A model generated the notes under the pieces. The model made no database searches, was not told the origin of the DNA, and saw only the letters and a list, made by a program, of their open reading frames with translations. From positions 1 through 22,805 of the IMG/VR virus record IMGVR_UViG_3300010151_000188: a stretch of 22,805 bases of DNA. The stretch is one strand, 5' to 3'. How positions within the stretch are numbered: the stretch's first letter is position 1; each line of letters opens with the position of its first letter. Shown piece after piece: positions 1,108 through 18,558 of the stretch. The translations under genes and the position numbers were made by a program. This stretch comes from a virus.

Positions 1108-1187
1108 TCAGAACAGAGGTGGAAGGTTCGGAACTTTAGGAAAACCGATTAAATCATTCCAACAAAGCCTCATAACCTCAGTTCTGA
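1108..1187 (+). ncRNA. Structured intergenic element A (80 nt, long closing stem)
   Basis: TCAGAACAGAGGT (1108-1120) is complementary to ACCTCAGTTCTGA (1175-1187) over 13 positions, with one A-A mismatch. Inside, AAGGTT-CGG-AACTTT (1123-1137) can form a 6-bp hairpin. No T-tract follows, so it is not an intrinsic terminator. It lies between a tiny ORF and the 152-residue gene, and the ribosome binding site of that gene starts about 10 bases past the stem. It could be a leader RNA or a regulatory hairpin. Function is unknown. Confidence 0.4.
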
Positions 1188-1666: not shown

Positions 1667-1670
1667 GATT

Positions 1671-1819
1671 TGGGGGTGGTGGATATTGTCGCTACTCTTT
1701 GCGAGGGAGTATTTGTCTAGGGTAGTAAGTAGTGAGACAAAATGTTATATATGTGTCTGCGGATGCTAATAAGAATATCTTACTAGTTATTGCATAGCAA
1801 TTATATTCAGAAACCCCCA
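1671..1819 (+). ncRNA. Structured intergenic element B (149 nt, multi-hairpin)
   Basis: TGGGGGT (1671-1677) pairs with ACCCCCA (1813-1819) as a closing stem. Inside, GGATATT (1681-1687) pairs with AATATCT (1774-1780, one G-U). TACTC (1693-1697) pairs with GAGTA (1707-1711), TTTGTCT (1712-1718) with AGACAAA (1735-1741), and ATTGC (1789-1793) with GCAAT (1797-1801). AGACA can alternatively pair with a second TGTCT at 1754-1758, so two exclusive folds exist. No gene fits here and no T-tract follows. A structured RNA is plausible but unproven. Confidence 0.4.
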
Positions 1820-1863
1820 CTAGATTTATGGGAACTTTAATTAACAAAAGGAGTATAAGTAGT

Positions 1864-3515: not shown

Positions 3516-3822
3516 ATCAAAATATAGAGCAGACTTGGAAAAACTTGGCAGTTATTCAATAATTATACCGCTAGACAAGGGGGATATTGGTTGTTATGTA
3601 GAAGGATTTGATGATATGAATGTTAAAGATTCTAATGAATTTTGTAGAGAAGTTGTTAATTTATTAGAGTTTGAAATAATAACAATGAATAATACACAAA
3701 AGAGTAAATCAAATAGATTTCTATATCTAGTTAAAGAGGTTACGAAAAAAATATGTAGGATGAATAACTTAACATTTAAAGATTCTGATGAGTTATTCTT
3801 ACTAGGTCAAGGCGATGCTTGA
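3487..3822 (+). CDS. Hypothetical protein, 111 aa
   Basis: This 111-residue protein begins MRDYTQESIESKYRADLEKL and contains a beta-type segment YSIIIPLDKGDIGCYVEGF (about residues 23-41), followed by helices. GAGGGGAGA at 3468-3476 is the likely ribosome binding site. The N-terminal MRDY matches the start of the broken ORF at 3306, perhaps by chance. It overlaps the downstream nuclease gene by 8 bases, so joint expression is likely. No domain is recognised. Confidence 0.55.
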   Translation: MRDYTQESIESKYRADLEKLGSYSIIIPLDKGDIGCYVEGFDDMNVKDSNEFCREVVNLLEFEIITMNNTQKSKSNRFLYLVKEVTKKICRMNNLTFKDSDELFLLGQGDA

Positions 3823-4549
3823 TATTAAAGATATATATAATGCATATCTTCAGAAACTTAATGAGGATAATCGTATCAATAGATATGAGGACAAGGAGCA
3901 TTGGTTCCATGCCTCATCCAGTGGAATGTGTATGCGTAAGATATATTACAATAGCATTGAGCAGGTAGATAGCACAGAGATAGACGAGAATACATTACGA
4001 TTGTTTAGACTTGGCGATTTAGTTCATGGAGATATACAAGATTCTTTAATGCTACACGCAGAGAAAGAGAAAGTAGATATATTAATTGAAGAAGAGATAC
4101 AGATAAAAGATATTAATGTTAGAGGATTCTTTGATATATGTATAGTGGATGATGATGCTATGTATGATATAAAAACGTGCAATAGTTTTAAGTGGAGGAA
4201 CTTGTTTGGTAGAACACCTGACCCTGAACCTGCGGAGAATTATGCATTGCAGTTAGGGACTTATGCTTATTGGTATCAACAAAAATATGATGCTGAATTA
4301 CAGAAGTTGGCTTTGGTTTATTACAACAAGGACACCTCATTAATGAGAGAGGTCAATGTCCCGAAGTCCTTTATTATCAAGGCTTACGAGTATTGGAAAG
4401 ATGTGAATGAACGATTTAAAATTGGGATACCAGAGGTATCTTTAGGCACCGCACCAGTTTATGAGTGGGAGTGTAATGTAAAATATTGTGGCTACTTTAA
4501 TCACTGCGGAGGTGGATTGAAGGGTCAAAGTAAATGGAGTAAACGATAA
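3815..4549 (+). CDS. Cas4/RecB-like PD-(D/E)XK nuclease with Fe-S cysteines
   Basis: The 244-residue protein carries the motif order of the Cas4/AddB-type branch of PD-(D/E)XK nucleases. There is a first cysteine in SSSGMC (C39) near RKIYY, a GDLVHG motif with H71, the catalytic acid in GFFDIC (D107), D118 and K120 in YDIKT, and QLGTYAYW with Q146 and Y150. Three C-terminal cysteines (C220, C225, C231) complete the set of four that bind a 4Fe-4S cluster in this family. Phage members process DNA ends for recombination, usually as 5'-3' exonucleases. With the ERF annealing protein downstream it probably forms an exonuclease/annealase pair. The family call is strong; polarity is inferred. Confidence 0.85.
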   Translation: MLDIKDIYNAYLQKLNEDNRINRYEDKEHWFHASSSGMCMRKIYYNSIEQVDSTEIDENTLRLFRLGDLVHGDIQDSLMLHAEKEKVDILIEEEIQIKDINVRGFFDICIVDDDAMYDIKTCNSFKWRNLFGRTPDPEPAENYALQLGTYAYWYQQKYDAELQKLALVYYNKDTSLMREVNVPKSFIIKAYEYWKDVNERFKIGIPEVSLGTAPVYEWECNVKYCGYFNHCGGGLKGQSKWSKR

Positions 4550-4564
4550 AACAAAGGAGTAATA

Positions 4565-4885
4565 ATGGCTAAAACATTAGCAACTGGAAGAAAAAAAGCA
4601 GTCAATACAAAGACTTATGCAACAGGTAGAAAGAAACATACCAATGTGCCTACATTAAAAACAGGTAGAGCAAGGATAACTTCAGCTGAAGGGAGACCAA
4701 GCAAAACTTTATATGTGTTAAAACATTTAGAGAAGCATGGGACTATCACTAGTTGGGATGCTATACAATTATATAATGCAACTAGGTTATCAGGTATCAT
4801 CTTTACCTTAAAGCAACAAGGGTATGTGATTGAAACCACTGGTGGCGAAGGTAGAAATTATGCTACTTATCATTTGAGAGGTTAA
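4565..4885 (+). CDS. Winged-helix DNA-binding protein with TGR-repeat tail
   Basis: This 106-residue protein has two parts. Residues 1-45 are a basic tail with three spaced repeats: ATGRKK (6-11), ATGRKK (19-24) and KTGRAR (32-37). Residues 46-104 look like a winged helix of the phage HTH_39 type (Pfam PF14090): LKHLEKHGTITSWDAIQLYN, then a recognition helix with TRLSGIIFTLKQQGY and a wing GGEGRNYATYHL. The tail may add minor-groove or nucleic-acid contacts, like an AT-hook. AAAGGAG precedes the ATG. It sits directly before structured element C, so it may be a regulator or an architectural protein. Confidence 0.7.
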   Translation: MAKTLATGRKKAVNTKTYATGRKKHTNVPTLKTGRARITSAEGRPSKTLYVLKHLEKHGTITSWDAIQLYNATRLSGIIFTLKQQGYVIETTGGEGRNYATYHLRG

Positions 4886-4896
4886 AAATAGTTGGG
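4885..4896 (+). repeat. 12-base intergenic motif, copy 2
   Basis: This exact copy of AAAATAGTTGGG starts at the last base of the stop codon of the winged-helix gene, just as copy 1 overlaps a stop. Its GGG is the beginning of the long stem of structured element C. Confidence 0.6.
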
Positions 4897-4993
4897 TGGT
4901 AGGCTTACAAATCCTCACATCATTCATACCCTTTTTATTGGTTAGTGAGATTATGCTACACATCACAAAGTGAGTTGATAAAGTTTACCACCC
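4894..4993 (+). ncRNA. Structured intergenic element C (100 nt, three-way junction)
   Basis: GGGTGGTAGGCTT (4894-4906) pairs with AAGTTTACCACCC (4981-4993) in a 13-bp stem with two G-U pairs. Inside, AATCCTCAC (4910-4918) can pair with GTGAGATT with a bulged C, and TCAC-AAA-GTGA forms a small hairpin near 4962-4974. The fold is that of a multi-branch RNA. There is no ORF and no T-tract. It lies between the winged-helix gene and a 74-residue gene. I could not match it to a tRNA or any known RNA class. Confidence 0.45.
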
Positions 4994-4996
4994 TAC

Positions 4997-5008
4997 AAAA
5001 TAGTTGGG
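4997..5008 (+). repeat. 12-base intergenic motif, copy 3
   Basis: A third exact AAAATAGTTGGG, followed by AAC as in copy 1, begins three bases after the closing arm of element C. It is not next to a stop codon. Confidence 0.6.
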
Positions 5009-5040
5009 AACCTTTTAAAGTTTGTGACATATAAGTGTTG

Positions 5041-5068
5041 TAAGCCAAAGCAATGGTGCCTTGGCTTA
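5041..5068 (+). other. Perfect 8-bp hairpin in the leader of the 74-aa gene
   Basis: TAAGCCAA (5041-5048) is perfectly complementary to TTGGCTTA (5061-5068), and an inner G-C pair extends it. It ends about 20 bases before the ATG at 5089. No T-tract follows, so a leader hairpin is more likely than a terminator. Confidence 0.45.
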
Positions 5069-5088
5069 AACCAAAATGGAGAATAAAA

Positions 5089-5313
5089 ATGAAAATAAGT
5101 AACATGATTAATAAGAGAATCAATGCAAATCTGAGTTTGATTAAATGGTATTCCGAACAATTAAAAGAAGAAGAATCGGAAAAAAAATACGAACTAATTA
5201 GAGATAAAATGCATTTAGTTGAAAGAGAACAAAATTTCTTAATTGATTTGCTAAATGCAATGGGTCAGGAAGAACTACAAGAACAAAAGGAAAAACAAAA
5301 TGAAACAAGATGA
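5089..5313 (+). CDS. Coiled-coil hypothetical protein, 74 aa
   Basis: The ATG at 5089 is preceded by TGGAGA. An upstream in-frame ATG at 5053 lies within the hairpin and is less likely. The 74-residue protein begins MKISNMINKRINANLSLIKW, is almost entirely helical and is rich in Glu and Lys, as in a coiled coil (about residues 15-70). It overlaps the next gene by 14 bases. No family is recognised. Confidence 0.55.
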   Translation: MKISNMINKRINANLSLIKWYSEQLKEEESEKKYELIRDKMHLVEREQNFLIDLLNAMGQEELQEQKEKQNETR

Positions 5314-7918: not shown

Positions 7919-8181
7919 AAATTAACTACAAAGATATATCAATTACATTTAAGTTTAGGCTTGAAGAGTTAGAGAATATGATTGAAGTATACACTAGACA
8001 GCCAAAGAAATGCGAACTTGAAGATGGAATAAGACAAGACTTAAGAAACATAAGAATGAAAGTAGAAGAAAAAATTATTTTAGAAAAACAAGCAGCAGAA
8101 CAAAGGCCAACTGAAGATATGAGAGAAGCTTCAGCTAACCCTACATCTGTTGAACACATAAAGGAGACAACTAATGAGTGA
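7915..8181 (+). CDS. Hypothetical protein, 88 aa (GTG start)
   Basis: The GTG at 7915 overlaps the previous TGA as GTGA, so coupled initiation is likely. The product begins MKINYKDISITFKFRLEELE. It has a long helical middle (about residues 14-65) and a polar, Pro/Ala/Thr-containing tail. The ATG of the SSB-like gene lies eight bases before its end, preceded by AAAGGAG. No domain is recognised. Proximity to the SSB-like gene hints at a DNA-metabolism role. Confidence 0.5.
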   Translation: MKINYKDISITFKFRLEELENMIEVYTRQPKKCELEDGIRQDLRNIRMKVEEKIILEKQAAEQRPTEDMREASANPTSVEHIKETTNE

Positions 8182-8452
8182 CTTTGTACCAAAACCAAAT
8201 ACAGCAAACCTATTTCATAATGACGTAGGTGACAACCCAAAGAGACCTAATTGGAAAACAATAGGGACAGTAACTTTCAACGGAGTTGAAGGATATGTTT
8301 CAGGTTGGAGTAAGAAAGCAAGCAATGGAAATGATTTTATATCTATTGTTTTTGAAGATAAGGAAACTTACGAATCTAAAAGAGGTGGAGCAAGACCTCA
8401 ACCTAAAGAAGCTACACCATCAACAGTAAAGGATAGCGATATACCTTTTTAA
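8174..8452 (+). CDS. SSB-like protein with DSDIPF tip, 92 aa
   Basis: The 92-residue protein ends in KDSDIPF, the acidic/hydrophobic tip by which bacterial SSB proteins (D-D-D-I-P-F) recruit replication and repair partners. Residues about 27-62 form a likely small beta domain (WKTIGTVTFNGVEGYVSGWS), followed by a proline-containing linker (70-85). It is shorter than a bacterial SSB (about 110-180 residues), so the fold may be reduced or different. Its position close to ERF and other DNA genes supports single-strand DNA binding. The tip is seen; the OB fold is inferred. AAAGGAG precedes the ATG. Confidence 0.6.
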   Translation: MSDFVPKPNTANLFHNDVGDNPKRPNWKTIGTVTFNGVEGYVSGWSKKASNGNDFISIVFEDKETYESKRGGARPQPKEATPSTVKDSDIPF

Positions 8453-8454
8453 CC

Positions 8455-8518
8455 TTTAGGCTGGGAAAACTGAATATTTTCCATATATTAATATACAAGT
8501 TAAACAACCTAGCCTAAA
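8455..8518 (+). ncRNA. Structured element D1 upstream of the methyltransferase
   Basis: TTTAGGCTGGG (8455-8465) pairs with CCTAGCCTAAA (8508-8518) over 11 bp with one G-U. The 42-base loop is AT-rich. It begins right after the SSB-like stop at 8452. It may act in the 3' end of that mRNA, but no T-tract follows it. Confidence 0.45.
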
Positions 8519-8528
8519 AACATTACCA

Positions 8529-8589
8529 AGCTGTCAGATTTTTTGATTGAGATTATATCAGTTAGTTTTTTCCTTTTGGTCTGACAGCT
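8529..8589 (+). ncRNA. Structured element D2: perfect 10-bp inverted repeat
   Basis: AGCTGTCAGA (8529-8538) and TCTGACAGCT (8580-8589) are perfect complements separated by 41 AT-rich bases. A T-run lies inside the loop rather than after the stem, so this is not an ordinary terminator. It could be an RNA hairpin, a protein-binding palindrome or an origin element. Confidence 0.45.
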
Positions 8590-8595
8590 ACACTT

Positions 8596-8699
8596 TGGGG
8601 TAACAGTATATATTAACATTTAAAAATTAAAGGAGTATACCTTACCTTTGTTAGAGATTGTTAAACATATACTTGGAGGTTGGCAAACCAGTTACCCCA
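8596..8699 (+). ncRNA. Structured element D3: nested stems before the methyltransferase
   Basis: TGGGGTAAC (8596-8604) pairs with GTTACCCCA (8691-8699). Just inside, AGTATAT (8605-8611) pairs with ATATACT (8667-8673), and TTAACA (8613-8618) with TGTTAA (8659-8664). A side hairpin is GGTT-GGCA-AACC (8678-8689). AAAGG (8629-8633) can pair with CCTTT (8645-8649). This nested order strongly suggests a folded RNA leader ending 18 bases before the methyltransferase ATG. A TTG-started 26-residue frame (8648-8728) also overlaps it, so coding origin is a competing reading. Confidence 0.45.
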
Positions 8700-8717
8700 C
8701 AAAAAACAAGGAATATA

Positions 8718-9460: not shown

Positions 9461-9651
9461 AAAATAACGATAAGATATTATGTATGATTAAACAGCGACT
9501 AGATGTTGGTGCTGCAAAGTATGGCGAACAAGTGCCGATTGATGGAAGTAGGGACAATCTTAAAGAAAGTATAGAGGAATTGTTAGACCTATGTGTCTAC
9601 TTGTCCGCTGTTGCCCTGGAATTGCATGAAAAATACAAAAATGCCGAATGA
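9457..9651 (+). CDS. Small MazG-like protein (TTG start), 64 aa
   Basis: AAGGAG at 9444-9449, seven bases before a TTG at 9457, marks the start; a longer TTG start at 9403 lacks such a site. The 64-residue product contains DVGAAKYGEQ (16-25), RDNLKESIEELLDLCVYLSA (32-51) and a final helix. KYG, then RDNL, then an E-rich helix followed by D, is the pattern of small phage all-alpha NTP pyrophosphohydrolase-like (MazG/DUF1599-type) proteins, which hydrolyse nucleotides. Only half of a full ExxE/ExxD site is clear, so activity is uncertain. It overlaps the methyltransferase remnant by four bases. Confidence 0.55.
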   Translation: MKNNDKILCMIKQRLDVGAAKYGEQVPIDGSRDNLKESIEELLDLCVYLSAVALELHEKYKNAE

Positions 9652-9758
9652 CGCATTATCTTGTAGTTTCAGGGCATTCAGTATAATTAGTGGATAGTTA
9701 TATCCAATAGAAAAAGTTATGGCCGTATAGGCCTATCCTCGTAAGGAAAATTTTTAAA
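9652..9758 (+). other. Intergenic region with short hairpins
   Basis: This gap holds TGGATA-GTTA-TATCCA (9691-9706), a perfect 6-bp hairpin, and TCCT-CGTA-AGGA (9736-9747) followed by AAAATTTTT. AAGGA in the second hairpin is also the probable ribosome binding site of the next gene, so folding could regulate its translation. No tRNA was found. Confidence 0.35.
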
Positions 9759-17767: not shown

Positions 17768-18558
17768 TATTCTGTTTCCACATTTAAGTCTATACTATCA
17801 TTATTGGTGCTCAAAGTCTGATTAGCATATTGCTTTAAAAAAGACTCATACCAGCTTTCATTACCACCTTGTAAAAATGACATGAGAGCCAGTTGAAGCC
17901 ATTCATCACTATCTTTGTATAATTCTGGATTTTTAAATTTCTTTACTTTTTTAGAGTATTCTACTGGGTCTTCTCCATATGCTTTAAATTGGTCTAAAAG
18001 CCCTTGAGTTCCATCTTTTATAAAATCAATAACTTTTCCTTCTCCGAAGTGATAGTCTTCAGTAGCTTCAGACCACTTAGTCTTCATATTTTCCTCAAAC
18101 TTTTGCCAACCTTCACTGTCTTTTATAACATCAAATGCTACATCCAACCCAAGGTCTTTCATTCTGTTTCCAAATTTTAAATCTTCAGTATATTTTTTGC
18201 TTAATTCTTTAACTTCCAAATCTATGTTTTTAGCAGCATCTCCTAGATACTGAACTGGAGAAGTATCTATACCTCCCCTAGCATCGCTTGCTCTGCGGTC
18301 TAGGTATGCAGCTTCTGCTGTTCCAAAAATCCAATCATCAATTTTATTAGAAGATAAACTTGTACCAAGCTTAAGAATATTTCCTAACATCCCTATGTCT
18401 CCAGCTTTAGAAACTTTATCTAATCTTTTTTGAACTTGTTCTTCAATATATAAAGTATCAGCTGCTTTGACCTTTATTAAATCTAACATTTGATTAAAGC
18501 CTTTGTTACTATACTTGGCTTGGTTGGTGTATTTACCTCTTACATTATATGCTGACAT
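17767..18558 (-). CDS. Probable virion protein, 263 aa
   Basis: The 263-residue protein begins MSAYNVRGKYTNQAKYSNKG. It has a helical, Lys-rich middle (DLIKVKAADTLYIEEQVQKR, about residues 26-45) and ends with LQGGNESWYESFLKQYANQT near the acidic C-terminus. There is no signal peptide. AAGGA lies just upstream of the ATG, in a gap with a hairpin. Its position between the 113- and 395-residue genes suggests a minor virion or ejection component. No domain is recognised. Confidence 0.6.
   Translation of the reverse strand: MSAYNVRGKYTNQAKYSNKGFNQMLDLIKVKAADTLYIEEQVQKRLDKVSKAGDIGMLGNILKLGTSLSSNKIDDWIFGTAEAAYLDRRASDARGGIDTSPVQYLGDAAKNIDLEVKELSKKYTEDLKFGNRMKDLGLDVAFDVIKDSEGWQKFEENMKTKWSEATEDYHFGEGKVIDFIKDGTQGLLDQFKAYGEDPVEYSKKVKKFKNPELYKDSDEWLQLALMSFLQGGNESWYESFLKQYANQTLSTNNDSIDLNVETE

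Follow-up and report, generated by a model that had tools for sequence, protein, structure and literature searches.

Structured RNAs of uncultured phages have scarcely been catalogued. Early promoters of phage HK022 are followed by the put RNAs (putL and putR), ~70 nt long and with two stem-loops (PMC9378689); an RNA of this kind is recognized by those features together with binding to the zinc-binding domain of RNA polymerase. Phage-encoded small RNAs include some derived from 3′ untranslated regions (UTRs) (PMC12197685), the mark of the latter being a discrete stable transcript or a processed fragment from an mRNA 3′ end. Comparative genomics has supplied candidate structured RNAs in large numbers (PMC2864571, PMC8040213), recognized by pairs that are kept by change on both sides, while miniature inverted-repeat mobile elements are recognized by several copies at unrelated sites and a target duplication at their ends.

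We analyzed the 22,805-base virus record IMG/VR IMGVR_UViG_3300010151_000188 over its full length (the window), in which two early genes of an uncultured phage are separated by an intergenic element of ~105 bases. Like HK022 putL and putR, it is a small structured RNA of an early phage region, beside early promoters; unlike them, it is closed by a single long stem and lies upstream of a promoter-like motif, whereas the put RNAs have two adjacent stem-loops and follow their promoter, and the Rfam scan gave no sequence match between the two. It resembles phage-encoded small RNAs, including those derived from 3′ UTRs, in being phage encoded, intergenic, ~100 nt long, and possibly of 3′-UTR origin; no sequence relation to them was found. 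It shares an intergenic position and pairs kept through changes with the comparative-genomics candidates but differs from them in belonging to one uncultured phage lineage, in three sequences, with no Rfam match. Miniature inverted-repeat or REP-like palindromes have in common with it inverted-repeat ends, precise presence or absence, and (in one phage) a direct repeat, but the element is a single copy at a fixed site, shows selection at the RNA level, and lacks a duplication in two of its three carriers. The features of the locus are as follows.

3815 to 4549 (+), gene for a Cas4-like PD-(D/E)XK nuclease, upstream of the element (phrog_1706, E 5.8e-23; Pfam PDDEXK_1 below cutoff)
4565 to 4885 (+), winged helix-turn-helix gene, its stop codon directly before the element (phrog_4973; Pfam HTH_39, E 2.7e-11)
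4885 to 4896 (+), left copy of a 12-base direct repeat, AAAATAGTTGGG, which is a single copy at the empty sites of relatives
4891 to 4996 (+), whole structured element (P1 plus an outer GT/AC extension), from folding, a stem scan, and homologues in contigs L006 and L007
4894 to 4906 (+), 5′ arm of the closing stem P1, GGGTGGTAGGCTT, with pairs kept in three sequences
4908 to 4918 (+), invariant core CAAATCCTCAC, in which CTCAC (4914 to 4918) is the 5′ strand of P2; identical in the window, L006, and L007
4945 to 4949 (+), second GTGAG, a rival for CTCAC in the window sequence only (pairing probability 0.64 versus 0.32)
4955 to 4960 (+), invariant GCTACA, probably unpaired; identical in the window, L006, and L007
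4970 to 4980 (+), invariant GTGAGTTGATA, in which GTGAG (4970 to 4974) is the conserved 3′ strand of P2; identical in the window, L006, and L007
4981 to 4993 (+), 3′ arm of P1, AAGTTTACCACCC, with pairs kept in three sequences
4997 to 5008 (+), right copy of the direct repeat and start of the promoter-like motif, from repeat comparison with relatives
4997 to 5040 (+), promoter-like motif of the next transcription unit, AAAATAGTTGGGAAC - 17 bases - ATATAAGTGTTG
5041 to 5068 (+), hairpin TAAGCCAA..TTGGCTTA within the presumed leader of the next gene, from sequence
5089 to 5313 (+), small gene downstream of the promoter-like motif; no PHROG match

P1 consists of 13 contiguous pairs, two of them G-U, and its arms were present to the letter as given in the original prediction; beyond it come a T-T mismatch and then GT/AC pairs (4891 to 4892 with 4995 to 4996). 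The + strand RNA of the element folded at -28.7 kcal/mol (z -3.1; 2 of 200 shuffles were as good), the - strand fold was much weaker (z -1.5), and the mean pairing probability of P1 was 0.98. A closing-stem scan of the whole window (spans of 45 to 130 bases) found an equally strong stem at only 2 sites on the + strand, the element included. The minimum free energy fold of the window sequence contains two inner arms, but CTCAC has two possible partners, the GTGAG at 4945 (mean probability, 0.64) and that at 4970 (0.32). In the L006 and L007 homologues, full-length inner pairing is possible only with the conserved GTGAG equivalent to that at 4970, and a nested fold is favored. The three-way junction described earlier is therefore not secure, since the window and its homologues have different inner arms and two GTGAG segments compete for CTCAC. 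P2 is invariant in all three sequences and so is predicted only, with the interior left without covariation support. An H-type pseudoknot, with CAAAUC x GAUUGG interleaved with CUCAC x GUGAG, is possible, but no varying pair supports it.

ARAGORN found no tRNA or tmRNA gene in the window, in agreement with the claim that the element has no tRNA layout. It had also been said not to be a terminator; an intrinsic terminator needs a U-tract, on the transcribed strand, behind a short G+C-rich hairpin, and here the loop is 74 bases long and the stem is followed by TACAAAATAG, with no U-run. Membership in an Rfam family is set by a covariance-model score at or above the gathering score of that family. 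The element had no match in Rfam 15 at gathering scores, and a relaxed search of 4600 to 5300 (E up to 10) returned three matches, which scored well short of gathering and did not cover the element, so that part of the proposed case for a new RNA class stood. A protein-coding origin was rejected, as no overlapping open reading frame exceeds 24 amino acids.

With the Cas4-like nuclease gene as the query, 12 viral contigs were obtained, and the junction 3′ of the winged-helix gene was inspected in them. Diverged homologues occur at the same junction in L006 (1214 to 1299) and L007 (5079 to 5164) as 86-base inserts with the stem GGGTCGTRARC/GTTTGCGACCC and the outer helix TRTAG/CTATA; relative to these, the window copy has ~20 extra bases in its apical part. 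The two inner invariant segments that form P2 and the GCTACA between them are unchanged across the alignment of the three sequences, an identity of 28 positions beside an adjacent gene that is ~78 to 82% identical at the protein level. All three copies begin 0 to 5 bases past the stop codon and end directly before the promoter-like motif, and the homologues fold with z values of -5.1 and -5.7.

Searches for further copies with a 21-base exact pattern gave no match. The core pattern matched only the L006 and L007 contigs; a long-insert version had no match, and no copy turned up in the genome_contigs collection or in the phage records. A looser core pattern yielded 39 loci, including the L006 and L007 contigs, and the others, which are without closing arms and GCTACA, were judged by eye to be chance. 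Covariance model R1, applied to every fetched locus and to 54 virus records at full length, returned the three known copies plus weak matches only: each carrier has a single copy, always at the same site, and the weak matches elsewhere (up to E 1) are without the core. Its - strand matches in L007 and L006 represent the same palindrome in reverse, and its weak matches in L182, L189, and L191 belong to a different closed-stem element.

The conserved pairing in homologues on which the original prediction depended was found. L006 and L007 retain every one of the 16 closing pairs that can be compared, and 3 of these pairs are changed on both sides (one is a C-G for G-C swap), though in three sequences only. 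In a consensus fold on the three-sequence alignment, 60 of 60 cells were standard pairs, compared with 33 to 55% paired in controls in which one arm was slid by 1 to 3 columns. When the six P1-arm substitutions between the window and L007 were placed at random on the two arms in a neutral simulation, all 11 pairs were kept with a probability of 0.001 (no transition bias) to 0.025 (strong bias). As + strand RNA, the variable pairs read G-U, U-G, or A-U, while on the - strand two pairs would break in each of two sequences, at different positions; selection therefore acts on the + strand RNA, as had been proposed from the G-U pairs of the window, and the loop letters stay identical. We regard this comparison of sequences as direct evidence that the stem is under selection as + strand RNA. 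The covariation score was matched by 20 of 500 shuffles because the alignment has three sequences only, and covariation of the element appears suggestive rather than conclusive because only two lineages carry it. For the same reason (three sequences, from two lineages, in the searchable data), a new RNA class by significant covariation was not established. The element, unclassified, adds one more to the many candidate structured RNAs of comparative genomics and would be a candidate small RNA family in a phage lineage with no cultured relative in the collections searched. The nuclease and a large structural protein had no counterpart in 50,697 phage records, and a literature search on pelagiphages found only unrelated work.

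Presence of the element is patchy. The stop codon region leads straight into AAAATAGTTGGGAAC, an empty site, in L001, L002, L003, L004, L005, L009, and L012; L008 has a different short palindrome at the junction, and L010 and L011 are without the winged-helix gene. A tree of the nuclease and Erf genes requires three changes to account for presence, and well-supported branches force at least two of these. Because presence changes repeatedly and a precise empty site is found in most close relatives, the element is accessory, lost or regained, and since close relatives do without it, it cannot be essential. A single recombination between the 12-base repeats of the window would give the empty site seen in relatives.

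Across 11 contigs, the motif that follows the element is present in 58 distinct copies, mostly ahead of early genes (consensus, AAAATAgTTGGGAAC - 17 - GTATAAgTAgTA); the second box, GTATAAGTAGTA, stands exactly 17 bases on in 34 of the 58, and copies in the window include those at 819 to 862, 1831 to 1862, and 4997 to 5040. The repeated motif looks like a two-box promoter, and GGAAC with a box 16 to 17 bases on is an arrangement that we take to recall extracytoplasmic-function sigma factor promoters.

We tentatively interpret the element, with a likelihood that we put somewhat short of even, as a folded RNA that forms the 3′ end of the early nuclease/winged-helix transcript, is accessory to the phage, and has an invariant unpaired core in its closed domain. 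The + strand element would be made as the 3′ UTR of the early mRNA that carries the Cas4-like nuclease and winged-helix genes, and its position directly after the stop codon fits that of a 3′-UTR-derived small RNA. The long closing stem would shut off a domain of 70 to 90 bases and shield it, or the mRNA 3′ end, from exonucleases, and the element may be stable or released as a small RNA. The invariant unpaired CAAATC, GCTACA, and TTGATA would be the working part, through which the core would bind a protein or another RNA. Phages would gain or lose the element precisely at the junction of the winged-helix gene and the next promoter. The 3′ end has no terminator or U-tract, and transcription may therefore simply run through into the next unit.

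The closest rival is a plain processing or stability stem, that is, a cis-acting mRNA element that serves as an RNase III-type processing site or exonuclease block with no specific loop partner. The position between two transcription units fits such an element, and the early intergenic DNA of the same phages has many long-stem elements (51 versus 10 shuffled), but a mere stem needs no core, and here the unpaired core is identical between lineages despite changed stem letters; relatives with the same gene order are, moreover, without the element. We consider this explanation rather unlikely. That the element is an ordinary inverted repeat arisen by chance in AT-rich intergenic DNA is very improbable: stems with similar scores do arise by chance inside window genes, but homologues contradict chance here, the stem being kept with compensating changes at the same junction in two other phages.

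A put-like antiterminator, a mobile palindrome, and a leader switch each fail a tested feature. By analogy with HK022, an RNA bound to RNA polymerase during synthesis could let the enzyme pass terminators into the next genes. The size and early location resemble those of the put RNAs (PMC9378689), and other elements in these phages begin a few bases after the promoter-like motif; this element, however, lies upstream of that motif and far from its own promoter, has one closing stem with an internal domain instead of two adjacent stem-loops, and is followed by no terminators that we could see, which makes such a function improbable. We give the same low weight to a small mobile or shuffled palindromic DNA cassette with inverted-repeat ends and a 12-base target duplication. 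It would account for imperfect terminal inverted repeats of 16 to 17 bases, the direct repeat at both ends in the window, the precise empty sites, and the need for at least two changes on the phage tree. The R1 search of 54 whole virus records found no copies at unrelated sites, however, but one per carrier, always at the same site. L006 and L007 are without the flanking direct repeat, so target duplication is not a general feature, and the promoter motif itself explains the repeat, so recombination between the repeats is enough for loss or gain. Still less probable is a cis-regulatory, riboswitch-like leader acting on the downstream gene through the two competing GTGAG segments: the window sequence allows two mutually exclusive CTCAC pairings and the element precedes a same-strand gene, but the promoter-like motif separates the two, the downstream gene differs among the three phages, and the second GTGAG is not conserved.

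Other folded elements are frequent in these phages. Noncoding DNA of 11 contigs contains 51 strong closing stems, compared with 10.1 (standard deviation, 2.9) in dinucleotide shuffles, and that of the window contains 6, compared with 0.3; further window examples are at 1108 to 1187, 1668 to 1821, 8455 to 8518, 8529 to 8589, and 8596 to 8699. The surrounding phages have at least five further conserved intergenic RNAs, and Rfam gave nothing for ten further loci. Two loci of the window are the following.

1668 to 1821 (+), a second, better conserved RNA with the closing stem TGGGGGT/ACCCCCA, in 8 relatives and 5 further contigs
8455 to 8705 (+), three tandem closed-stem RNAs, from the gene at 8174 to 8452 to a DNA methyltransferase gene

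The RNA at 1668 to 1821 is 72 to 96% conserved in relatives, has no Rfam match, and, like the element at 4891 to 4996, stands directly before a promoter copy; its 5′ domain, TTGGGGGTGGTGGATATTGTCGCYACTCTTTGCGARAGAGT, is invariant and has a loop of 7 bases, UUGCGAR, that resembles an anticodon loop in its layout. Every relative examined at the junction of the tandem three has a counterpart of the middle RNA (8529 to 8589), and in nine sequences 94% of cells were paired, 7 of 12 pairs were changed on both sides, and no shuffle equaled the score. Complementarity between the pyrimidine loop of this middle RNA, UUCCUUU, and AAAGGAA/G in the third RNA suggests one multidomain RNA. The motif TTGGCTAC, common to the element and the RNA before the methyltransferase gene, is too short for a claim of homology.

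At the promoter site at 819, the window has no RNA, G002 has a 115-base RNA, and G003 and G005 have a 77-base RNA; different RNAs at one site suggest exchange of RNA cassettes. The closed-stem ends of the window RNA at 1108 to 1187 (+), TCAGAAC-A-GAGGT/ACCTC-A-GTTCTGA, are common to G009 (oriented, 18275 to 18323), while the interiors are wholly different. Possibly, though we think it doubtful, the lineage swaps interchangeable small structured RNAs with covarying stems as accessory "RNA morons" at the edges of two-box-promoter transcription units, the element at 4891 to 4996 included, much as phages swap small protein genes. If so, any count of phage accessory content would have to include RNAs in addition to proteins. 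The element itself is a small but well-marked case: selection acts at the RNA level, Rfam has no match to it, and a single site supplies natural pairs of phages with and without it.

The different closed-stem element of the distant relatives L182 (4460 to 4640), L189, and L191, GGGAGTGAG..CTCACTCCC, lies before the nuclease gene region. Its loop reads CCTCCTT (CACCTCCTT in L191), the letters of the 16S anti-Shine-Dalgarno sequence, just before an AGGAG start site, and this element is possibly a translational switch. Arrays of TATTAGGGTAACCCTA-like palindromic repeats occur in one noncoding region in G003, G004, G005, G006, G007, G009, and G011, perhaps an origin or integration region. At 9612 to 9676 of the window, a strong stem, TGCCCTGGAATTGCATGA/TCTTGTAGTTTCAGGGCA, extends over a gene end where two opposite gene blocks meet and looks like a bidirectional 3′ end.
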